Origin: Nitrospira sp.
Lineage (GTDB): Bacteria > Nitrospirota > Nitrospiria > Nitrospirales > Nitrospiraceae
NCBI GenBank assembly: GCA_005116745.1
Contig: SWDS01000001.1
Coordinates: forward strand, 1-64,000
DNA: 64,000 nucleotides
Reading direction: 5' to 3'
How positions within the stretch are numbered: position 1 is the first letter of the stretch; each line of letters opens with the position of its first letter. Position numbers and translations under genes: made by a program. Below are positions 3,071-31,438 of the stretch, one piece after another. The notes under the pieces were generated by a model. That model saw only the letters and a list, made by a program, of their open reading frames with translations, was not told the origin of the DNA and did not search any database.

Positions 3071-4123
3071 ATGAATAAAAAATTTCGAATCGCCATCGCA
3101 GGAGCCAGCGGATACGCCGGTGCGGAACTTGTTCGGCTTGCGGCAGCCCATCCCTATTTTACCATCGCCGCCGTGACATCTGAAAAGTCTGCGGGCCAGT
3201 TGGTTTCATCCGTGTTTCCAAGCTTCAAGGGAATCCTCGACCATCAATTTGAAGCCTTGGCACCGGAAGCCCTGACGGAGCGGGCGGATGCCATTTTTCT
3301 CGCCCTGCCGCATACAAAATCGCTGGACCCCGTTGCGGCCTGTATCAAGGCAGGCAAACCTGTCGTTGACCTCAGTGCCGATTATCGGCTGAAGGACGCC
3401 GGCACCTACGAGAAGTGGTATCACACGCCGCATAGCCATCCACATTTGCTCCAAGACGCCGTGTATGGGTTACCCGAACTCCATCGATCCGCGATTGCTC
3501 AGTCGAGACTGGTGGCTTCGCCTGGATGTTATCCTACTGCCGCAGTCCTCCAGTTGGCACCTCTCTTCGCAAACAAACTTGTGCAACCAGAGACGATTGT
3601 GATCGACGCAAAGTCTGGTGTTTCAGGAGCAGGACGGAGTCCGGCCCTGCCCTACCATTTTCCAGAAGCGCATGAATCCTTAGAGCCCTACAAAATCGGT
3701 CAACATCGCCATATTCCTGAAATCGAACAGGAACTGTCTGGACTCATGAAGGCAATCGGCTCCGTGACCGTAGCATTTACCCCGCATCTGGTCCCGATGA
3801 ATCGAGGCATCCTAAGTACGGCCTACTGCAAACTGACGAAGAGCCTGAAACTGTCTGACCTTCAGGCCTTGTATCGAGAGCAGTACAAGGGAGAGCGGTT
3901 CATCCGACTCTTCGAAGACGTGACCCCTAATCCGCGTTACATTAAGGGCACAAACTATTGCGACATCGGCGTGTATGTGGATTCTCGGGCCGGATGGGTT
4001 GTCACCGTGGCAGCAGTGGACAATCTCGTCAAAGGGGCTGCCGGTCAGGCAATTCAAGCCATGAATCTCATGCTCGGTATTCCTGAGGAAACAGGGCTAA
4101 CAGCTCCGGGCAGTTATCCATAA
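3071..4123 (+). CDS. argC: N-acetyl-gamma-glutamyl-phosphate reductase
   Basis: This enzyme makes N-acetylglutamate semialdehyde from N-acetylglutamyl phosphate with NADPH, the third step of arginine synthesis. The protein is 350 residues, normal for the long ArgC type. The Rossmann motif GASGYAG lies at residues 11-17 and the catalytic Cys at 153 in SPGCYPTA. The substrate-binding HRHIPEIEQEL block is also present. argJ follows 57 bases downstream, giving the acetyl-recycling pair; argB is not in the window. Confidence 0.95.
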   Translation: MNKKFRIAIAGASGYAGAELVRLAAAHPYFTIAAVTSEKSAGQLVSSVFPSFKGILDHQFEALAPEALTERADAIFLALPHTKSLDPVAACIKAGKPVVDLSADYRLKDAGTYEKWYHTPHSHPHLLQDAVYGLPELHRSAIAQSRLVASPGCYPTAAVLQLAPLFANKLVQPETIVIDAKSGVSGAGRSPALPYHFPEAHESLEPYKIGQHRHIPEIEQELSGLMKAIGSVTVAFTPHLVPMNRGILSTAYCKLTKSLKLSDLQALYREQYKGERFIRLFEDVTPNPRYIKGTNYCDIGVYVDSRAGWVVTVAAVDNLVKGAAGQAIQAMNLMLGIPEETGLTAPGSYP

Positions 4124-20654: not shown

Positions 20655-20845
20655 AATGATTCATTCGTGTAGTAGAAATAGTCCCGCGCGTTGAGTCGCG
20701 TATCAGACCTCGCCTGCACGCGGAAGGCCGGATCATTGGCTCAGCTACAATACTCTTTTTTTTAGAAAATGAGAACTGGCTAAGACCAGCGTTCAATGGT
20801 TGGAATAAATTGACAGACCGTGCGTGCCTTTGCGACACTCGCCTC

Positions 20846-21103
20846 GTGAACGATGTGAATGCACAGGACGTAGCCCACGCGCTAGAGATTTTGGAGCTGA
20901 CCCTCCCGGTCACGTCCGACACCCTTGATCGCGCCAAGCGTGTGCAGTTGTACAATTGGAATCCGACACGCTACTCCAACCTGACGAATAATCCCACTCA
21001 ATACATGCAGGCTTACAAGAAGGCCGAAGAAATGACCAAACTGGTCGAGGCCTCTCACGCCCTGCTCTCGGCCTTGCTCGTCCCTGACGAGACTGAACCG
21101 TAA
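20846..21103 (+). CDS. small J-domain-like protein with altered HPD motif
   Basis: This roughly 85-residue protein has a helix-loop-helix layout like a J domain: ALEILELTLPVTSDTLDRAK, then YNWNPTRYSN where a J domain has WHPDR, then YKKAEEMTKLVEASHALL like the KK..EI..AYE.L helix III. The HPD tripeptide needed to stimulate Hsp70 is NPT, so it is unlikely to be an active co-chaperone. The start is uncertain: GTG 20846 or 20855, or a TTG at 20810. The J-like reading is inference from spacing and pattern. Confidence 0.5.
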   Translation: MNDVNAQDVAHALEILELTLPVTSDTLDRAKRVQLYNWNPTRYSNLTNNPTQYMQAYKKAEEMTKLVEASHALLSALLVPDETEP

Positions 21104-21206: not shown

Positions 21207-23180
21207 TCAGCCGGCATCATGACTCGTCACACGCGACATCCCTTCATCGCCCTGCGAAAGCGCCACTGGCCACGTGATCAAACCCGATACACCCTCTGGC
21301 GATCCGACCGGCTGCGCTTGCTGCGCGTAGATTTGGGGCAACTGGTTCGTCCCGAACTTCGAGATATAGAGGAAGACATGCTCGCGCGAGTTCACGCGCA
21401 CAGCCCAAGGATGGAAATCATGCTTGTAGAATTCTTCGCAGAGCTGCATCGCATCAAGACATGACAGCGTGCTGGGATCATTCAAGGTGTAGTAATAATC
21501 CAGCGGGAGATCGTACTCCTCCTGCTTATGAATCGTCATGCCAAATTGTTCCGGCTTCCGCACCATCGGCGTATGGCGATAGGCCACGAAGTAGAACAGT
21601 TCCAGCGAGTGAATCACCGGCTGGTTGTTGAGGACAAACTGGCGGGTTTCCATCGCCTCGTCGAATGTTTCGCTTGGGAACCCATAGAACGCCATCACAT
21701 GGTTCCAGATTCCCGCCTTCGCTGCCATCTGGAGATTACGCTGGATCACGTCCTTCTTGGCATGTTTATCCATGAGAGTTAAGACCCGCTCGTTCGCCGA
21801 TTCCATCCCATAATAGAGCGTACAACAGCCAGCCTTGGCCGCCAGATCCCAGGTGGCCTGATCTTGCAGGGTCTCCTCAAATCGAATGAGCGTCGTCCAT
21901 TTAATCCCGACATCTTGATCGACCAGCAACTGTGAAACCTTCTTGAATAATGCCGGCGGATAGGACTCATCGCTGAACAAGAAGTGCCGACAGTGGTACT
22001 TGTCCCGCAGCGCCTTGATCTGATCGATCACGAATTGAGCCGGCATCCCTCGATATTGGTCGAAGTAGCCTTGACCATGGTCGCAGAAGGTACAACGTCC
22101 CCAATAACAGCCGCGCGTGGCCAGATAGGGAATAATCAGTTCCGGAACGAAGTAGCGATCCAGCGGCATCCCGTCAAAATCCGGCAAGGGCAGCGTGGTC
22201 GTCTTCTCGGTATAAACCTCCGAGTTCCGGTGAAGGCCTGACTCATCTCGGTAGATTAAGTTGGGTACAGCGGCAATCGGTCGCTGGCCATTCAGCGCTT
22301 CAATAAGCCATAGCAGAGCATGTTCACCTTCATAGAGAATGGCCGAATCGAATACCTCCGTGAAGAATCTCTCGTGATGCACGAGGTCTTCGTGCAGTCG
22401 AGTGATAACATTGCCGCCCACCACGAGATGGATCTGCGGGAACGTTTCCTTGATCATCTTGGCAAAGGTCAAGCCGGCCAGCAACTGCATCTGTGTCCCA
22501 ATGGAAATGCCGACCACGTCAGGTTGTTCCTTCGCGACCTGCGGCAGAACCAACTGATTGGACAGATCTCGATAGACGTTCACCTGCTCATCCTCCAAAC
22601 AGGCGAACACTTCGTTCGAGACGCCGGGGCGATAGCCGAGATTGCTTTCCATCGGATAGAAGACGAGCGAGGCAGGATAGTAGGCAGCAGAGAGATAGGC
22701 CATCGTCTCACGGAACGTGTTCAGCGCCCCTTCCAACAGCTCCGCATCGTAGAACCGCTCACCACGGACGATCCGCTTCGCATCCTCCGCTCGTTCCGCC
22801 AGATCGAACACATCACGTGCATAGGCCTGCTCGACCACCGCAAGTTGATTCACCTCTCGTTCAGTCAGTGCGTTGGCCTTCTCTTTCGCTTGCAATGACT
22901 TGAGTTGCATCCCAAGCCTAGCCTTCACCCAAATCAGAAAATCCATACTGAAAAAGTGATCCCACATCCCGATATTGATATCGCGCTGGATCACCGTATG
23001 ACCCGCTTCTCGTAGGACCGCAGTCAGCGAAGGCAGGGCAAGATAAGGCGCCGTCGGTACCCACTCAGGAGGGAAGAGCAACATGACCTTGGATCTCTTC
23101 CGATCTTCCTTCTTGATCGGAACCAAACCGTCGATTTGAACAAGTCCGGTGGCACTCATAAATGTCTGCCAATCCTGCAT
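21207..23180 (-). CDS. B12-binding-type radical SAM protein, copy 1
   Basis: This protein is about 657 residues. The N-terminal region has the Rossmann-like start of B12-binding radical SAM enzymes (VMLLFPPEWVPTAPYLALPS, then AGHTVIQRDIN), and a later segment reads DVVGISIGTQMQ and HLVVGGN. The cluster motif is RGCYWGRCTFCDHG: three Cys spaced CX4CX2C, not the usual CX3CX2C. The C-terminal half has the FSDESYPPALF and FYGFPSETFDEAM blocks of the barrel. Substrate is unknown. ATG 23180 was chosen to match the paralogue's length; a TTG at 23210 is in frame. It lies about 127 bases downstream of copy 2 and is likely co-transcribed. Confidence 0.8.
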   Translation of the reverse strand: MQDWQTFMSATGLVQIDGLVPIKKEDRKRSKVMLLFPPEWVPTAPYLALPSLTAVLREAGHTVIQRDINIGMWDHFFSMDFLIWVKARLGMQLKSLQAKEKANALTEREVNQLAVVEQAYARDVFDLAERAEDAKRIVRGERFYDAELLEGALNTFRETMAYLSAAYYPASLVFYPMESNLGYRPGVSNEVFACLEDEQVNVYRDLSNQLVLPQVAKEQPDVVGISIGTQMQLLAGLTFAKMIKETFPQIHLVVGGNVITRLHEDLVHHERFFTEVFDSAILYEGEHALLWLIEALNGQRPIAAVPNLIYRDESGLHRNSEVYTEKTTTLPLPDFDGMPLDRYFVPELIIPYLATRGCYWGRCTFCDHGQGYFDQYRGMPAQFVIDQIKALRDKYHCRHFLFSDESYPPALFKKVSQLLVDQDVGIKWTTLIRFEETLQDQATWDLAAKAGCCTLYYGMESANERVLTLMDKHAKKDVIQRNLQMAAKAGIWNHVMAFYGFPSETFDEAMETRQFVLNNQPVIHSLELFYFVAYRHTPMVRKPEQFGMTIHKQEEYDLPLDYYYTLNDPSTLSCLDAMQLCEEFYKHDFHPWAVRVNSREHVFLYISKFGTNQLPQIYAQQAQPVGSPEGVSGLITWPVALSQGDEGMSRVTSHDAG

Positions 23181-23307
23181 CTCAGGATGTTCAAAAAGGT
23201 CTTCCGGCAAGACCGCAGCAAGTGAGAAGGCGAGGCGTACTCCCCACCGTACGTTGAGCCCTTGAACGATGCGAGAACGAAGCTGGAAGCCTTTTTCAAC
23301 ATCCTGA

Positions 23308-25206
23308 TCACATCTTCCCAGCTAGCGTCGGTGTCACTCCGGTCGCTTTAGCCTTTTGATATTGCAGATCCTGGAGCTTTCCTAAACCAAATTTTGAAAT
23401 GTAGAGAAAGATGTATTCCCGGATGTACAGGCGTAGATCCCAGCCGGGATTATGGTTTCGCTCGAACTGCTCGAATACACGCTCCGCCTCCTCAATACTC
23501 ATCCCATGTTTCACCGTGTAGTAGTAATCGAGGGCCAGATCCCATTCGGGATTCTTATAGGCGGTCACCCCCCATTTCTCCGGATGCTTGGCGACCGGGT
23601 TGTGCCGACCCAGGTCAAAGGTGCCGAAGCCCAGGGAATGCACATGGTCCTTGTTTGCCTCAAGAAATTGCACCGATTGCCAGGCCTCTTCCTTCGTCTC
23701 GCCTGGAAAACCGAAGAAGCCCATACAGTGGTTCCAAATGCCCGCATCGGCCGTGAGCTGCAGATGCTTCGTCATGATCTCAGTCGTAGTCGCCTTATCC
23801 ATCAGCTGCAGCACTCGCTCGACGCCAGACTCATAACCGAAGTGGAGATACTTGCACCCCGACTCCTTCGCACCCTGCCATACCGTCTGATCCAGCAAAC
23901 TCTTTTCAAACCGCATGTGAGTGGTCCAGGTGATGTTCATCTGGCTCTCGATCAACCCGCGCGTGAGCTTACGAAATAACGCCGGCGGGTAAGATTCGTC
24001 GGTAAAGTGGAAGTGCTTGGTGCCATATTTATCGCGCAGAAACTGAATATCCGCGAGCGCATCCTGTATCTTCTTCGACCGGTAACCGGCCGTATAGCCC
24101 TCGCCATGGTCACAGAATTCGCACCGGCCCCAATAGCAGCCGCGCGTGGCGAGATAGGGCAGAATCCTCGTCGGCACGAAATACTTCTCCAGCGGCAAGC
24201 CATCAAAGTCCGGCGGCGGCAGCGCTGCGAGATCCTCCGCATAACTGGTCGATGACGTATGGACCCCGGTCTCGTCTTTGTAGATGGCGTTCGGCACCTC
24301 AGCCAGACTCCGCTTCGCTCCCACCGCCGAGACCAGTTGCACAAACGCCGTCTCCCCTTCATAGACCACCGCACTGTCGAAGTACTGGAACAGCGGCGAC
24401 TGGGGCAACACATCTCGCAAGCGCGTCACCGTATTGCCGCCGATGGTGATGTGGATGTGGGGGAAGTGCTGCTTGATAAGGGCACAGAAAGTCATCGTCG
24501 AGAACATCTGTTGCTGCAGGACAATCGAGATACCGATGACATCTGGTTTCTCTGCCTCGATCGCCGGCTTCACCAGATGGTCGAACACATCACGGTAGAT
24601 ATTCACCTGTGTATCGTTCACCGCATCGATCACTTCAGAGGAGACATAGACCTTGTACGAGAGATCCGTCTCCATAGGCGGCATGCAGATTCTCGCCGGG
24701 GAATAGACCATCGAGATCACCGACATCACTTCACGAAAGACTTGAAGTGACCATTCTAACTTATCGATATCATAGAACTGTTCACTTCGTATAATCCGCT
24801 TCGCCTCTTCAGCATTCTGGATCAACTTCGCCATCCGCTGATGGGTCACGTCGCAGAGCGCCAGCTGCAGATCCATCTCGTTGACATCGAGATCCCGCTT
24901 CTTCGAGAGCTTCCGCAGCCGATCAAGTTGCTGTGGCACCCGGCGAAGAACCTTCTTCAAAAAGTCCTCGCTGAAATACCAGTCCCACATCTCACAGTTG
25001 ATGTCTTTTTGAATCACCGTATGGCCGGCCTGACGGAGGACGGCAGTGAGAGAAGGAAGGCTTAGGTAGGGTTCCGAGGGAAACCAATCGGGCGGGAAGA
25101 TCAGCATGACCTTCATCTTCCGGCCACTGGTGGCTTCGAACTGTTGGCGATTCAATAGGATGAGTTCTTTAGAGGCCCGCTCACCTTTAGAATACTCGAT
25201 CTTCAT
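23308..25206 (-). CDS. B12-binding-type radical SAM protein, copy 2
   Basis: This 632-residue protein is a clear paralogue of the next gene downstream: VMLIFPPDWFPSEPYLSLPS, AGHTVIQKDIN, DVIGISIVLQQQMF, HITIGGNTVTRL and DFDGLPLEKYFVP all align. The cluster Cys are 357, 362 and 365 (RGCYWGRCEFCDHGEGY), again CX4CX2C. A DxHxxG cobalamin-ligand motif is not obvious, so B12 would bind base-off without a protein His, if at all. Two related enzymes side by side suggest successive or alternative steps on one product. No biosynthetic partner genes flank them here. Confidence 0.82.
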   Translation of the reverse strand: MKIEYSKGERASKELILLNRQQFEATSGRKMKVMLIFPPDWFPSEPYLSLPSLTAVLRQAGHTVIQKDINCEMWDWYFSEDFLKKVLRRVPQQLDRLRKLSKKRDLDVNEMDLQLALCDVTHQRMAKLIQNAEEAKRIIRSEQFYDIDKLEWSLQVFREVMSVISMVYSPARICMPPMETDLSYKVYVSSEVIDAVNDTQVNIYRDVFDHLVKPAIEAEKPDVIGISIVLQQQMFSTMTFCALIKQHFPHIHITIGGNTVTRLRDVLPQSPLFQYFDSAVVYEGETAFVQLVSAVGAKRSLAEVPNAIYKDETGVHTSSTSYAEDLAALPPPDFDGLPLEKYFVPTRILPYLATRGCYWGRCEFCDHGEGYTAGYRSKKIQDALADIQFLRDKYGTKHFHFTDESYPPALFRKLTRGLIESQMNITWTTHMRFEKSLLDQTVWQGAKESGCKYLHFGYESGVERVLQLMDKATTTEIMTKHLQLTADAGIWNHCMGFFGFPGETKEEAWQSVQFLEANKDHVHSLGFGTFDLGRHNPVAKHPEKWGVTAYKNPEWDLALDYYYTVKHGMSIEEAERVFEQFERNHNPGWDLRLYIREYIFLYISKFGLGKLQDLQYQKAKATGVTPTLAGKM

Positions 25207-25596: not shown

Positions 25597-25881
25597 ATGC
25601 CTCAGGCCAATGTGCAAGTCCCTGTGTTGATGAGCCCGGCTCAGAAACGCCGCCTGGCCCGCAAGGCCAAAGCCGCGAACCTCACCATGGGGGAATTGCT
25701 TCGTCAGGGGGGAGAACGATTTTCTCCGGCAGAAGATAACGCTGCCCTGGATCAATTCGCCAAACAGGTCACGCGGGCTACTCAACGAGCCATCCAGTCG
25801 ATCGATCGAACCTTGGCATTGGTTGCACAATCGGAAACTCGCATCCAAGCCCTGACGAACTCACACCGAAAGCATGGATGA
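25597..25881 (+). CDS. ribbon-helix-helix-like DNA-binding protein
   Basis: This is a 94-residue protein. Residues about 5-42 fit an Arc/MobC-type ribbon-helix-helix: a short strand (NVQVPVLMS), helix 1 (PAQKRRLARKAKAA) and helix 2 after NLTMGELLRQ. The remaining part is helical. Such proteins are antitoxin or plasmid-type autorepressors or relaxosome parts. GAGAGG at 25585-25590 precedes the ATG. The stop overlaps the next start by four bases (ATGA), so the two are coupled. Function is inferred from fold only. Confidence 0.6.
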   Translation: MPQANVQVPVLMSPAQKRRLARKAKAANLTMGELLRQGGERFSPAEDNAALDQFAKQVTRATQRAIQSIDRTLALVAQSETRIQALTNSHRKHG

Positions 25882-26081
25882 TGGGCCTCACTGAACGAGT
25901 CTGGGACGCATTTGCCAGAACGATTCGATTAGTCGACAAAGTCGAACAACTCACCGCCACTGTCGCCAAACAACAACACCACATCGAAGACCTGACCGGC
26001 CGTGTCATACGGCTTGAAACTGCGCTTGAGCTTGCTCTTGGAGCGAAACGTCCCAAGAAATTGTCCAGGCCATCCTCTTAG
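25878..26081 (+). CDS. small coiled-coil protein, probably frameshifted near its end
   Basis: This is a 67-residue protein with a heptad-rich core (VDKVEQLTATVAKQQHHIED, then LTGRVIRLETALEL), coupled to the RHH gene. After residue about 55 its frame turns basic and stops at 26081. The -1 frame then continues with a protein-like stretch (IVQAILLAGAIDSESLEHQ... LEELTRACELL) to a TGA at 26171-26173 and has no start codon of its own. The simplest reading is a one-base frameshift in an originally longer protein of about 98 residues. No canonical slippery heptamer is seen. It could be the partner in a two-gene module. Confidence 0.5.
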   Translation: MMGLTERVWDAFARTIRLVDKVEQLTATVAKQQHHIEDLTGRVIRLETALELALGAKRPKKLSRPSS

Positions 26082-26137
26082 CCGGCGCGATTGATTCAGA
26101 ATCGCTCGAACACCAGATTTCAGGGTGGACAGATCGG

Positions 26138-27328
26138 CTAGAAGAACTGACTCGTGCTTGCGAACTGCTCTGAGATGCCATGTTCAGCGGGAAGAATTAT
26201 GGCAGCGATCTGGCCTCTCCCTCGACCGCTATTTTTCCACTTCGCCATGGCGGCTAGAGCCGATCGGTGAGAACAGCTGATAGGAATACAAGAAACAAGA
26301 TCTGACCCCGATTCCTGCATGCCTAAGGTGCTCTTGATGTTGCGCAGATCGAGCTCGACATGCCATCGGCTTTGAAACAGAGTCTTCAAGGCAGACTTGT
26401 GCGTGGTCTTGGGGCACAGCAGCGTCGTCACCAGGATTTTGCCGCCGGTGCGCAGCTCCCGTACCATCAGCGTACTGGGTGCCTGATCATAGTCCGCTTG
26501 ACACATCCAGTCCGGTTTGTGAATTGGTTTCTGGAGCACAATCAGATGATCGCGTGAGCCTAACCGCTGTCCGCACCGAAAGTCGGTCCGGCGCGCCCCG
26601 TATTGCTCAAAGACCCCATCAATGCCCAATTCACGCAAGGTGCACAGCAGAAAATACGTGGCGTAAAAGGCATCGCCCACGAGCAGATCTCCATACTCCA
26701 ATGTATGGAGTATCGACCGGAGGAGGGTCTGCTCATCGCCTCCTTTCCCCTGATAGCGACCGATGGCGGCATTGAGCACTGCCCCACTCTCGAGACACAC
26801 CAAGCCGACGATCCGGCACAAGGGAAACCCCAGCCCGGGCTTCTGACTCCGTGGTTGAGGATAGGCCGCCTGATTAGCTGGTGTGTCCGGCATGACCACG
26901 GTCGTGCCATCCACCAGCCGGACCGGACGCCCTCGCCACCGCCAGGGCGCCGGAGCCTGTGCCGTGAGCCGTCGCCCGGTCTGTCGCACCAGAGTGGTGA
27001 GCATCTCCGTCGGTACGCGTTGTCGTGCTCGACAATAGGCCCCCGTATGCGTACTGCACCGCGGCAGGCCTCGGGTCATGCGTTTAACGGCGGTGTCGTT
27101 GACGACGTTCTGACAGGACCGATCTGCACTGAGCGTTTGCGCAAGAAACATCGACAGGGTCTCGGTTGGGGAGAAGACCCGTTTCCGATGGGGCGGCACG
27201 AGTGACTCGACCTCACCCAACAACTCAGGGCGAGTCAACAGGGTGAAGAATGTCTCCGCATGACTGCGGTGAATACGCTGGCGAAGGCGTCGTTGTTGCT
27301 GCGCACGTGGGTGATGCTTCGGATACAT
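26138..27328 (-). CDS. IS4-family transposase, C-terminus replaced/truncated
   Basis: This 396-residue transposase has the DDE core: first Asp in RLVDGTTVVMPDTPAN, second in DLLVGDAFYATYFLL, and the R-x3-E-x6-K signature in SRWHVELDLRNIKSTLGM. GGAGGAG ten bases before ATG 27328 supports the start. After LGM, where family members continue with about 100 conserved residues, the sequence switches at the TCTGACCCC motif (26301-26309) to about 60 unrelated residues. So the element lost its end by deletion or by a second insertion and is probably inactive. Confidence 0.8.
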   Translation of the reverse strand: MYPKHHPRAQQQRRLRQRIHRSHAETFFTLLTRPELLGEVESLVPPHRKRVFSPTETLSMFLAQTLSADRSCQNVVNDTAVKRMTRGLPRCSTHTGAYCRARQRVPTEMLTTLVRQTGRRLTAQAPAPWRWRGRPVRLVDGTTVVMPDTPANQAAYPQPRSQKPGLGFPLCRIVGLVCLESGAVLNAAIGRYQGKGGDEQTLLRSILHTLEYGDLLVGDAFYATYFLLCTLRELGIDGVFEQYGARRTDFRCGQRLGSRDHLIVLQKPIHKPDWMCQADYDQAPSTLMVRELRTGGKILVTTLLCPKTTHKSALKTLFQSRWHVELDLRNIKSTLGMQESGSDLVSCIPISCSHRSALAAMAKWKNSGRGRGQIAAIILPAEHGISEQFASTSQFF

Positions 27329-27453
27329 TCAGACTCGCTCCTCCGGTGAAAAATCGATAGGTGTTTAGCCCCCTACCGTATCACTGGAATCGGCCTTTTG
27401 CGCGTCACCTCACCGCTGGAGCTGTTAAGTAAGTGCCATTCCACTCTGACCCC
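26301..27453. repeat. TCTGACCCC direct repeats bracketing the transposase core
   Basis: TCTGACCCC occurs at 26301-26309, exactly where the transposase loses homology, and at 27445-27453 upstream of the AIPR gene, in the same orientation. The same core, read as GGGGTCAGA, is familiar from insertion-element ends. They may be junction scars; only the two short copies are seen. Confidence 0.4.
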
Positions 27454-27533
27454 TATTGCGCACTCAGTTGCTGCGGACAGCGCTGCACGCCAACGCAGAA
27501 CCGGAGCGTTCGGCACACTAGAGGAAAAGAACT

Positions 27534-29231
27534 ATGAGCATCATTCATGTCAACCAGATAAAGAACCATGTCGTGCGCCTCTTCGACGGCAAGATTGATA
27601 TGACTGACGCCGGACGGCCAGGCGCAGACTACGACAATCAGTTTTTGACGAGATCTCTTGCCGCCTATACCATTCACTACCTTTCTGGCGCAGAGCCGAC
27701 TAGCTGTGCGCAGGCTATAACTGATGGCGGCGATGACAATGGGATTGATGCCATCTTCTATCACGAGCCAGAAAAGCGTCTCTATATTGTTCAGTCGAAG
27801 TGGATACACGATGGTAGCGGAGAGCCATCAAATGGGGACATGAAGAAGTTCATCGCTGGTGTTACCGATCTTTTTAATATGCGCTTTGAACGCTTCAATA
27901 AGAAGGTGAACGCGGTCAAAGCAACATTGCTTCAGGTTCTCAATGATCCGCAGTCTACCTACAGTGTTGTTGTTGCATACACCGGACTCAATACGCTTGC
28001 AGAACCCTCACGGCGCGATCTTGATGACCTCATAAAAGAGATGAACGATGCTAGTGAGATGCTAACAGTCACTACGCTCAATCAATCCGGATTGCATGCA
28101 TCACTGACCGCTCGTCTTGCGGGTGAGCCAATCAACGTTGACTTCGGACTCAAGTCTTGGGGAAAGATCGATACACCGCATATCGCCTTCTACGGCCAGG
28201 TGGCTGCCTCGATTATCGCAGAGTGGTGGAGCAAATTCGGGGATCGTCTCTTTGCGCGGAATCTTCGAAGCCTTCTGGGCGACACCGACGTTAACAACGA
28301 GATGCGACAAACGCTTGAGGAGTCGCCGGAACGCTTTTGGTACTTCAATAACGGCATCACAATCATCGCAGGAAAGATCACGAAAACAATGGCTGGTGGA
28401 GGCGGGACGGACTTCGGAATGTTTCACTGTGAGGACATCAGTGTCGTCAATGGCGCCCAGACAGTCAGCACGATAGGTCGCCATGCGGTAAAAGCGTCCG
28501 AGAAGGTTGCACGCGCATTTATTCCTTTGCGGGTAATATCTCTTGAAAAAGCAAATGCCGCTCTTGGCACTGCGATCACGAAAACAAATAATAGACAAAA
28601 CCGCATAGATAATCGAGATTTCGTAACGCTTGACCCAGCGCAGTCGCGTTTGCGCGCAGAGCTGGGTGTTGAGGGAATTATGTACAACGTGACTCGCTCA
28701 GATTCCGTTGTGCGAAATGACAAGTCGTGTGACCTTGTCGAAGCAACCACAGCACTAGCCTGTGCATCCGGCAAACCTGGGCTGTTTGTACAGCTGAAAC
28801 GCGAAGTGGGTAAACTGTGGGAGGATATTACTCGCGCTCCGTACAAGGAGTTGTTCAATGCATCAACTAACAGTCTGTTTCTCTGGCGAGTAGTGCAGAC
28901 TCAACGTTTGATTGATAGCAGCATATACAAAATGTCCACGCTCGACACTCTTGCAGGGCGAGATCTTGGATTGGCAACCCATGGCAACAGAATGATAGCC
29001 GCGATGGTATTCCGCGCGCTTCCCCTGGCACGATTTGGAGATCCTGCATTTGACCTCGCAGCCTCTATCACAGATGAGCAGTTTCTCGCATCTGTCCGCA
29101 GTGCATATGGGAAACTGAAAACCGAGCTGGACAGCAGTTACCCCAACGCAATCGTCCCGACATTGTTTAAGAACTTGACCAAGTGCAGCGATCTGTTCGC
29201 GAAAACCATAATAAGCTTGCCGACATCGTAG
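27534..29231 (+). CDS. AIPR-family (abortive infection phage resistance) protein
   Basis: This is a 565-residue protein of the AIPR family, tied to phage defence and often sitting in restriction islands. The family blocks FWYFNNGITII (268-278), VVNGAQTVSTI (304-314) and a TNNRQNRID segment are intact. The N-terminal part has a restriction-endonuclease-like pattern: Asp72 in DDNGIDAIF and Gln87/Lys89 in YIVQSKW, an Mrr-like D...QxK core. Base composition is less GC-rich than the neighbours, with more A-rich codons, a sign of transfer. It ends 18 bases before hypD and probably arrived with the mobile elements upstream. No methylase or second defence gene is adjacent. Confidence 0.83.
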   Translation: MSIIHVNQIKNHVVRLFDGKIDMTDAGRPGADYDNQFLTRSLAAYTIHYLSGAEPTSCAQAITDGGDDNGIDAIFYHEPEKRLYIVQSKWIHDGSGEPSNGDMKKFIAGVTDLFNMRFERFNKKVNAVKATLLQVLNDPQSTYSVVVAYTGLNTLAEPSRRDLDDLIKEMNDASEMLTVTTLNQSGLHASLTARLAGEPINVDFGLKSWGKIDTPHIAFYGQVAASIIAEWWSKFGDRLFARNLRSLLGDTDVNNEMRQTLEESPERFWYFNNGITIIAGKITKTMAGGGGTDFGMFHCEDISVVNGAQTVSTIGRHAVKASEKVARAFIPLRVISLEKANAALGTAITKTNNRQNRIDNRDFVTLDPAQSRLRAELGVEGIMYNVTRSDSVVRNDKSCDLVEATTALACASGKPGLFVQLKREVGKLWEDITRAPYKELFNASTNSLFLWRVVQTQRLIDSSIYKMSTLDTLAGRDLGLATHGNRMIAAMVFRALPLARFGDPAFDLAASITDEQFLASVRSAYGKLKTELDSSYPNAIVPTLFKNLTKCSDLFAKTIISLPTS

Positions 29232-29249
29232 TTTCTGGGGATCACCTTC

Positions 29250-30359
29250 ATGAAGTACGTGGATGAATTTCGTGATCGTGCCGTGGCAGAGGCTTTGGCG
29301 GAGAGGATCAAGAAGACGATATGCCAGCCTTGGACGATCATGGAGGTGTGCGGGGGGCAGACCCATGCGATCGTGCGGTTCGGTCTCGATAGCCTGTTGC
29401 CGAAAGATCTGACGTTGGTCCACGGACCAGGCTGTCCGGTCTGTGTGACGTCGGTGTCGTTGATCGACCAGGCGGTCTGTCTCGCATCCTTGCCTCGGGT
29501 GATCTTCTGCTCGTTCGGCGACATGTTGCGCGTTCCCGGCTCCCAGGGTGACTTGTTCGGCGTGAAGGCGGCAGGCGGGGATGTGCGGATCATCTATTCG
29601 CCGTTGGATGCGCTCGAACTGGCTCGCAAGAATCCTGATCGAGAAGTCATTTGTTTCGCGGTGGGATTTGAAACCACTGCCCCAGCCTGGGCCATGGCAG
29701 CCTCGCAGGCGAAGCAGTCAGGGGTCACCAACTTCAGCCTGCTGATCGCCCATGTGCTGGTGCCTCCGGCAATGGAAGCGATCCTGTCGTCGCCGAAAAA
29801 TCGCATCCAGGGTTTTCTTGCTGCTGGCCATGTCTGTACCGTGATGGGCTATGAGGAGTACGAGGCCATTGCCCAGCGATATCGAGTACCGATCGTCGTG
29901 ACCGGGTTTGAGCCGCTCGATGTGCTCGAAGGCGTGGCGATGCTGGTGAGTCAGTTAGAGGAAGGGCGAGTTGAAGTCGAAAATCAGTACGTGCGATCCG
30001 TCAGCCGGGAGGGGAACCTACCAGCGAGGACCATCGTCGACGAAGTCTTTGAACCGGTGTCGCGCTCCTGGCGTGGCATTGGCGAAATTCAAGCAAGCGG
30101 CTTGCGCCTCAAGCCGGTCTACGGTGCCTACGACGCCGAAGTAAAGTTTCAACGTGAACTGGCGCAGCTTTCAGTAGGCATTGAAGATCCGGAATGCCAG
30201 AGCGGGCTGGTTCTCCAGGGATTGCTCAAGCCGATGGACTGTCCGGCCTTCGGGGTTCGTTGCACGCCGGAACAGCCGTTAGGTGCGCCGATGGTGTCGA
30301 GTGAGGGAGCCTGTGCCGCCTATTATCGGTATCGCTCCCATGCCACTAGTAAGGTCTAG
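29250..30359 (+). CDS. hypD: [NiFe] hydrogenase maturation protein HypD
   Basis: HypD is the iron-sulfur scaffold on which, with HypC, the Fe(CN)2CO group is built. The protein is 369 residues. Conserved Cys34 lies in MEVCGGQTH, and Cys62/Cys65 in GPGCPVCVT. The C-terminal cluster Cys lie in [12 protein letters not shown] and GACAAYYRY. hypE follows 17 bases later. The expected upstream partner hypC is absent; a defence gene occupies that place. The ribosome binding site is weak. Confidence 0.95.
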
Positions 30360-30376
30360 ACGGAAAGAGCGAGCAA

Positions 30377-31438
30377 ATGACTCTGCATGACAACAAACCA
30401 TTTGAACCGGCTTGCCCACTGCCGATCTCGGCAAAGAACACCGTGCAGCTTGCACATGGTGGCGGCGGTCGCCTCATGCAGGAGTTGATTCAAGACGTCT
30501 TCGTGCGGGCCTTTCATAATCCTATGCTGGCGCCACTCCACGACGGCGCAACGTGGCCCGTCGAGAAAGGCACGCTTGCCTTCACCACGGATTCCTATGT
30601 GGTGCGTCCGCTGTTTTTCCCTGGGGGTGACATCGGGAGTTTGGCGGTCAATGGCACGATCAATGATCTGGCCATGTGTGGCGCCAAGCCGCTGTATCTG
30701 AGCGCGGGATTCATCCTTGAAGAGGGCCTCAGTATGGACGTGCTCCAGCGAGTCGTGAACTCCATGGCCGAGGCGGCGCGAGCGGCAGGTGTGCCGATCG
30801 TGACAGGCGACACGAAGGTGGTGGATCGCGGCAAGGGCGACGAGATCTTCATTAATACAGCGGGGGTTGGTTTTGTCCCAGCCGGCGTCCGCGTGTTGCC
30901 GACGTTGATCCAACCGGGCGATGCCATTCTCGTGAGCGGTGACCTCGGTTCTCACGGTGTGGCGGTGCTCAGTGTGCGGGAAGGACTCACGTTCGAGGGC
31001 GACATCAAAAGCGATTCAGCACCGTTGCATCACATCGTGGCGGACTTACTCGAGAGCGGCATCGATATCCATTGTCTGCGCGATCTCACTCGTGGTGGGC
31101 TGGCTAGCGTGTTGAACGAACTGGCCGTTGCAGCAAAGGTCGGGATGACGGTGGAAGAACCTGTCATTCCGGTGAGCGAACCGGTGCGTGGAGCCTGCGA
31201 GCTGTTGGGGCTCGATCCACTCTATGTGGCGAACGAGGGACGCTTCGTCGCGATCGTACCGGCTCTACAAGCCGAAGCCGCGCTCGCTGTGATGCGCCGG
31301 CACAAGGCAGCCAGCTTGGCGGCTCACATCGGGACGGTGACAGATCGCAATCCTCCGATGGTTATCTTACAGACTGTTATTGGCACGCATCGTGTTCTGG
31401 ATCTATTGTCGGGCGAGCAACTGCCTCGCATCTGTTAG
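30377..31438 (+). CDS. hypE: [NiFe] hydrogenase maturation protein HypE
   Basis: HypE dehydrates the carbamoyl group carried on its last Cys to make cyanide ligands for the hydrogenase iron. The protein is 353 residues and ends in PRIC, so the essential C-terminal Cys353 is kept. [48 protein letters not shown] and [13 protein letters not shown] are the ATP-binding and family blocks. It is the last gene of the unit; no hydrogenase structural gene is in the window. Confidence 0.95.

Follow-up and report, generated by a model that had tools for sequence, protein, structure and literature searches.

The 64,000-nucleotide stretch of contig SWDS01000001.1 of a Nitrospira sp. genome analysed here (the window) carries two adjacent genes on the reverse strand, termed A and B, for proteins that combine a B12-binding domain with a radical S-adenosylmethionine (SAM) domain. 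Their features in window coordinates are as follows.

23308..25206, minus strand: gene A, B12-binding / radical SAM protein, open reading frame of 632 amino acids (aa)
24334..24582, minus strand: B12-binding domain core of A, residues 209-291 (PF02310, E 2.4e-11)
24112..24138, minus strand: CX4CX2C motif of A, CYWGRCEFC, residues 357-365, predicted [4Fe-4S] ligands, cysteines invariant in 24/24 aligned rows
23662..24150, minus strand: radical SAM core domain of A (PF04055)
21207..23159, minus strand: gene B, B12-binding / radical SAM protein paralogous to A and in tandem with it, ~650 aa if translation starts at the likely ATG
22314..22604, minus strand: B12-binding domain core of B, residues 203-299 (PF02310, E 1.9e-8)
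22083..22109, minus strand: CX4CX2C motif of B, CYWGRCTFC, residues 368-376 counted from TTG, cysteines invariant in 24/24 aligned rows
21633..22121, minus strand: radical SAM core domain of B (PF04055)

The mechanical open reading frame of B covers 21207-23210 and yields 667 aa counted from TTG. Orthologues begin with MSxxGLVQIDG, which orthologue alignment and sequence place at the ATG at 23159, so this ATG is the likelier start, B probably has ~650 aa and the TTG extension is probably spurious. A and B are 48 % identical across 607 residues. In pairwise comparisons, the ratio of nonsynonymous to synonymous substitution (dN/dS) was ~0.04 in A and 0.06-0.07 in B; judged by these values, strong purifying selection acts on the pair.

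Both proteins exceeded the Pfam cut-offs for PF02310 (43.9 bits for A, 34.6 bits for B, cut-off 32.1) and PF04055 (48.7 and 52.0 bits, cut-off 29.5), in agreement with the original prediction, made from the letters of the window, of tandem radical SAM paralogues. The B12-binding domain, which that prediction had missed, lies N-terminal to the radical SAM domain in A and in B, which is the class B architecture. The prediction had also remarked on the lack of a DxHxxG motif. This motif was sought in A and B and found in neither, but its absence carries no weight against cobalamin, because Mmp10, a B12-dependent radical SAM enzyme, misses all canonical B12 motifs including DxHxxG (PMC8828468). 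With PF02310 above cut-off in both proteins and this precedent, the missing motif was rejected as an argument against B12. CbiC, involved in cobalamin-ring synthesis, is encoded in the genome.

Profile searches against Pfam and NCBIfam assigned A and B to no curated family with known substrate, in line with the original prediction. The best NCBIfam match was TIGR04479, the PhpK-family P-methyltransferases, which share the B12-binding and radical SAM architecture; the scores of the two proteins, 139.7 and 123.3 bits, remained far under the cut-off of 600, and no phosphinate pathway genes occurred among the neighbours examined. The model for C-methyltransferases of ribosomally synthesised and post-translationally modified peptides (RiPPs), TIGR03975, gave 106 and 115.6 bits (cut-off 281.85), the BchE model TIGR02026 77.2 and 65.7 bits (cut-off 481.35) and the MgmA model TIGR04014 40-50 bits (cut-off 360). 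Similarity to the HpnJ, HpnR, BchE and ladderane-type models was likewise sub-threshold.

An AlphaFold2 model of A, calculated from a shallow alignment of 24 rows, reached a mean pLDDT (predicted local distance difference test) of 75.8 and a pTM (predicted template modelling score) of 0.81. The best fold matches (VIA) were OxsB (Z 19.6), TsrM (19.6) and AprD4 (19.1), followed by MgmA (18.3), CysS (18.2) and TokK (17.4). Matches to the cobalamin family had Z scores of 16-20 across ~360-420 residues, and Foldseek returned the same set. TsrM, OxsB, TokK and CysS are solved cobalamin radical SAM enzymes that differ from A in their sequences (13-19 % identity) and in acting on secondary-metabolite substrates. 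PDB entries outside the family (MiaB, RimO, HemN, NifB) ranked lower and were set aside, with Z 15.3 for MiaB and RimO and ~11 or lower for most other radical SAM folds. Fold and cofactor class of A and B, those of cobalamin radical SAM enzymes, are well supported by homology. The model is silent on the cluster geometry, since the cluster loop 363-374 had a pLDDT <50.

Methyl transfer is the commonest chemistry of class B enzymes (PMC9692996) and is the likely reaction of A and B. Within the same cofactor class, the alternative would be a reaction other than methylation, as in OxsB, AprD4 and BchE: rearrangement, dehydration or oxidative cyclisation. It draws on OxsB and AprD4 being among the best fold matches and on BchE as a sub-threshold profile match. 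Since the best profile matches (PhpK, RiPP C-methyltransferases) are methyltransferases and most of the structural relatives listed methylate as well (TsrM, MgmA, CysS, TokK), we consider a non-methylating pair unlikely.

The cysteine motif reads RGCYWGRC[ET]FC in A and B, thus CX4CX2C instead of the canonical CX3CX2C spacing of radical SAM proteins. Its departure from the textbook spacing is the sole point in favour of a sequencing error or a degenerate, inactive enzyme. The three cysteines were invariant in all 24 aligned rows, and the A/B homologues of the 80 best loci kept the motif as TRGCYWGRCEFC (n=79), TRGCYWGRCTFC (n=73) and TRGCYWGRCKFC (n=1). In 5000 shuffles each of A and B the motif did not arise once. 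An error was therefore rejected, as was chance, in line with the original prediction; with the low dN/dS values and a spacing common to a large subgroup and to GenD1, a degenerate enzyme is extremely improbable too.

The expectation that CX4CX2C might mark a new subgroup did not hold. GenD1 of gentamicin biosynthesis carries Cx4Cx2C (PMC4340712), and a paper from 2011 describes the signature of radical SAM proteins as 'CX3CX2C or CX4CX2C' (PMC3087415). Among the 49 rows of a quick tree, built from window and loci proteins with relatives picked by us, 35 had CX4CX2C, 13 CX3CX2C and one CX7CX2C. Eleven of the 13 CX3 rows ('GCP') formed a separate branch (support 100); the CX4 rows, mostly 'GCYW', dominated the other side of the tree, which also contained the CX7 row and two CX3 rows. 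The spacing label was strongly clustered on the tree (3 changes versus 12 in shuffles), a contrast inflated by near-copies and accompanied by several long branches. The window's genome encodes at least five CX4CX2C proteins: A, B, a third paralogue C, and one protein each at loci L137 (contig C7) and L086 (contig C2). Thus CX4CX2C is an already reported variant that marks a large 'GCYW' subgroup, and the motif by itself is ordinary. The L137 protein (L137:6487-8658, 724 aa) is encoded beside a FlgC-like flagellar gene; related proteins occur in other classes of the Nitrospirota and on a plasmid of Ideonella. A distant Nitrospirota genome has three CX4CX2C radical SAM genes in tandem (L108 / L121 / L129, G150:C116:584-5886), a separate tandem expansion.

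The third paralogue, C (G000:C2:269080-270765), is ~36 % identical to A, passes the cut-offs of PF02310 and PF04055, carries CX4CX2C and scored 159 bits with TIGR03975. A, B and C clustered together in the quick tree with a support of 89, under the starred level. C is part of a run of genes along one strand: on one side of C are genes for an unknown protein of 367 aa, a 4Fe-4S ferredoxin, a NarJ/TorD-type chaperone (PF02613) and an NxrC-type subunit (PF09459); on its other side are genes for a membrane protein, a TPR protein, an NHL protein, a second NxrC-type subunit (PF09459), a PDZ protein and a multihaem cytochrome c. The NxrC-type genes flanking C code for haem-b subunits of nitrite oxidoreductase (NXR). 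This gene order was identical in 15 of 15 loci from two families, four of which begin at C owing to a contig end. C was encoded with NXR genes in all 15 loci examined, A and B on a single contig, G202:C76. In N. moscoviensis, the counterparts are nxrC_2 (NITMOv2_3624), one of the most transcribed genes, and the gene of the TorD-like chaperone (3625), with nxrC_1 at 3617 (PMC6606698). By synteny, C of N. moscoviensis would correspond approximately to NITMOv2_3623, a tag for which no paper was found in the open-licence literature.

Among 146 Nitrospirales genomes, 140 had a match to A at E <= 1e-100. Since C scores near this limit with A as query, counting matches per genome gives too low a figure for C. 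A scan of genome contigs for loci, comprising the best 80 of 164 relatives, revealed a second copy directly downstream of A in 77 loci, and two of the three exceptions stop at a contig edge. In 198 Nitrospirota genomes, matches outside the order were much weaker, the best with an E value of 3e-74 at ~31 % identity, and are unlikely to be orthologues. On plasmids, the sole wider search beyond the phylum, 27 % identity was the maximum. Within these searches, orthologues came from the Nitrospirales only, where the pair is nearly universal. Nearly all of the 80 scan rows were labelled Nitrospirota. One carried a Nitrosospira label (L006) and one a Nitrospinota label (L080), which are doubtful because L080 shows the Nitrospirales gene order. 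Good support thus exists for the domain composition, the fold class, the orthology, the conserved tandem arrangement, the purifying selection and the operon of C.

NxrA was detected in 116 of the 146 genomes. Seven apparently NxrA-negative genomes with A or C were rechecked: five contain short pieces from an end of NxrA, in several cases where a contig stops; G110 and G018 had no fragment. G108, a single contig, has an NxrA stub of 46 residues. The short end fragments fit a collapse of repeated nxr copies during assembly. In one family (f34, four genomes), the only such family in the Nitrospirales, NxrA was not detected even with the limit set to E 0.001, and A, B and C were missing as well. 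This fits a functional link as a single phylogenetic contrast.

We propose that A and B serve the nitrite-oxidation machinery as cobalamin-dependent (class B) radical SAM enzymes and that they probably are C-methyltransferases, a reading to which we give an even chance as a whole. From the N terminus, each protein would consist of a B12-binding Rossmann domain, a barrel of the radical SAM type and a C-terminal region. The CX4CX2C loop would hold the [4Fe-4S] cluster that forms, with SAM, the 5'-deoxyadenosyl radical, and methylcobalamin in the N-terminal domain would donate a SAM-derived methyl group to an unactivated carbon of the substrate. A, B and C would then form a Nitrospirales-specific trio modifying a protein or cofactor of the electron-transfer machinery of nitrite oxidation. 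Because the third copy sits in the nxrC gene cluster, all three paralogues may help to build or modify this machinery, and its proteins and cofactors are the preferred substrate class. By this gene context, an NXR-related target is slightly favoured for C; for A and B it is extrapolated from paralogy and co-occurrence and is less likely than not. A protein and a small molecule appear about equally probable as substrate.

Several observations weigh against this proposal. The co-occurrence with NxrA within one order is confounded by descent and may go back to a single gain or loss. In the loci read, A and B lie away from nxr genes; the exception, a contig of a metagenome-assembled genome (the family f33 contig G202:C76, 13.8 kb), has B 4.4 kb from nxrA. 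The non-methylating OxsB and AprD4 match the fold of A as well as the methyltransferases do, in a model that combines a shallow alignment with a poorly predicted cluster loop. To our knowledge, no C-methylated residue has been reported for any NXR. A metallo-beta-lactamase-like protein of 539 aa, with a PqqD-like stretch recognised by eye, is encoded between nxrA and B in an f33 genome (L160:6728-8344); a link of A/B to this gene was dropped, as the arrangement was present in one genome only.

The neighbourhood of A and B bears on a different explanation: a pathway specific to the Nitrospirales that leads to a lipid, a quinone or a cofactor and has no relation to NXR. In this case A and B would be core genes owing to the age of the order and C would have been recruited separately. 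The nearest neighbour in the window is the following.

20810..21103, plus strand: small protein of 97 aa, convergent with B, J-domain-like by eye (neighbour cluster 2)

This protein had no Pfam or NCBIfam match and is kept beside B in three Nitrospirales families. In relatives, A and B are followed by the small convergent protein, often a radical SAM-like protein of 412 aa, and then PhzF, ADH, MogA, ferredoxin and GGCT-like genes; in some relatives a class I SAM methyltransferase precedes the pair. The 412-aa protein, rSAM8 (CPVKCEFC, L064:12292-13527, cluster 8), occurs in 24 loci and is encoded beside B in many Nitrospirales. Its homologue L067 matched no Pfam or NCBIfam profile, and a search of the window's genome, run without a positive control, gave no match to rSAM8. 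The shared neighbours that were to be looked for in other genomes do thus recur, with variable flanks, and A and B are the constant element. The statement that biosynthetic partner genes are missing is true for the window, but many relatives have rSAM8 and some also the SAM methyltransferase.

A small-molecule pathway might have neighbours of this kind, namely a methyltransferase, a member of the PhzF family and a further radical SAM protein, and the distance from nxr genes in nearly all loci together with the sub-threshold likeness to HpnJ, HpnR, BchE and ladderane-type models points in the same direction. However, PhzF, ADH and MogA travel as a block that may be unrelated to A/B; A and B persist where rSAM8 or the methyltransferase is missing, hence these two are not obligate partners; and the grouping of A and B with C in the tree counts against this explanation as well. 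A pathway unrelated to NXR is plausible, at somewhat less than an even chance.

A role of A and B in nitrite oxidation would have parallels elsewhere. MgmA and Mmp10 methylate methyl-coenzyme M reductase (MCR). MgmA, the glutamine C-methyltransferase of TIGR04014, has a class B fold like A and modifies a key enzyme of energy metabolism; it differs in only 15 % identity to A over the aligned part and in belonging to archaeal methanogenesis. The most specific version of our proposal, that the trio C-methylates NXR or its haem and electron-transfer partners post-translationally as a bacterial counterpart of MCR methylation, is speculative and rather improbable; if true, nitrite oxidation would depend on cobalamin. 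RiPP C-methyltransferases of the PoyB/PoyC type resemble A, B and C in architecture and in a variant cysteine spacing in the same loop, but their spacing is CX7CX2C (PMC5682303), which none of the three has. No precursor peptide was identified near A/B, where no systematic search was made. GenD1, compared by motif spacing only and from the paper (PMC4340712), is a cobalamin-dependent radical SAM enzyme with CX4CX2C like A and B, but acts in aminoglycoside antibiotic biosynthesis.

The Nitrospirales comprise major nitrite oxidizers and the complete ammonia-oxidizing (comammox) bacteria. An order-wide trio of B12 radical SAM proteins, with C encoded between NxrC-type subunit genes, suggests that a step of maturation or modification has so far escaped study; titles and abstracts of the open-licence literature held nothing relevant on radical SAM proteins of Nitrospira. 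If our proposal is right, nitrite oxidation is tied to cobalamin and mass spectrometrists obtain a concrete place to seek modified residues.

Upstream of A, the window contains a NikA-like gene, a DDE transposase and an AIPR protein (25597-31438) between A and hypD/hypE, a block that suggests a mobile insertion. A link to the hydrogenase genes was rejected, since neither hypD nor hypE was found in the other fetched loci. A pattern scan for promoters and terminators around A and B gave a site count not above that of shuffles. The space between A and B holds a 119-bp interspersed, imperfectly palindromic repeat (23185-23303, minus strand), which overlaps the extension of B to TTG, itself probably spurious. 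The repeat has 42 matches across the whole genome, two of which fall in the region of nxrC and paralogue C (C2:264157 and C2:266600).

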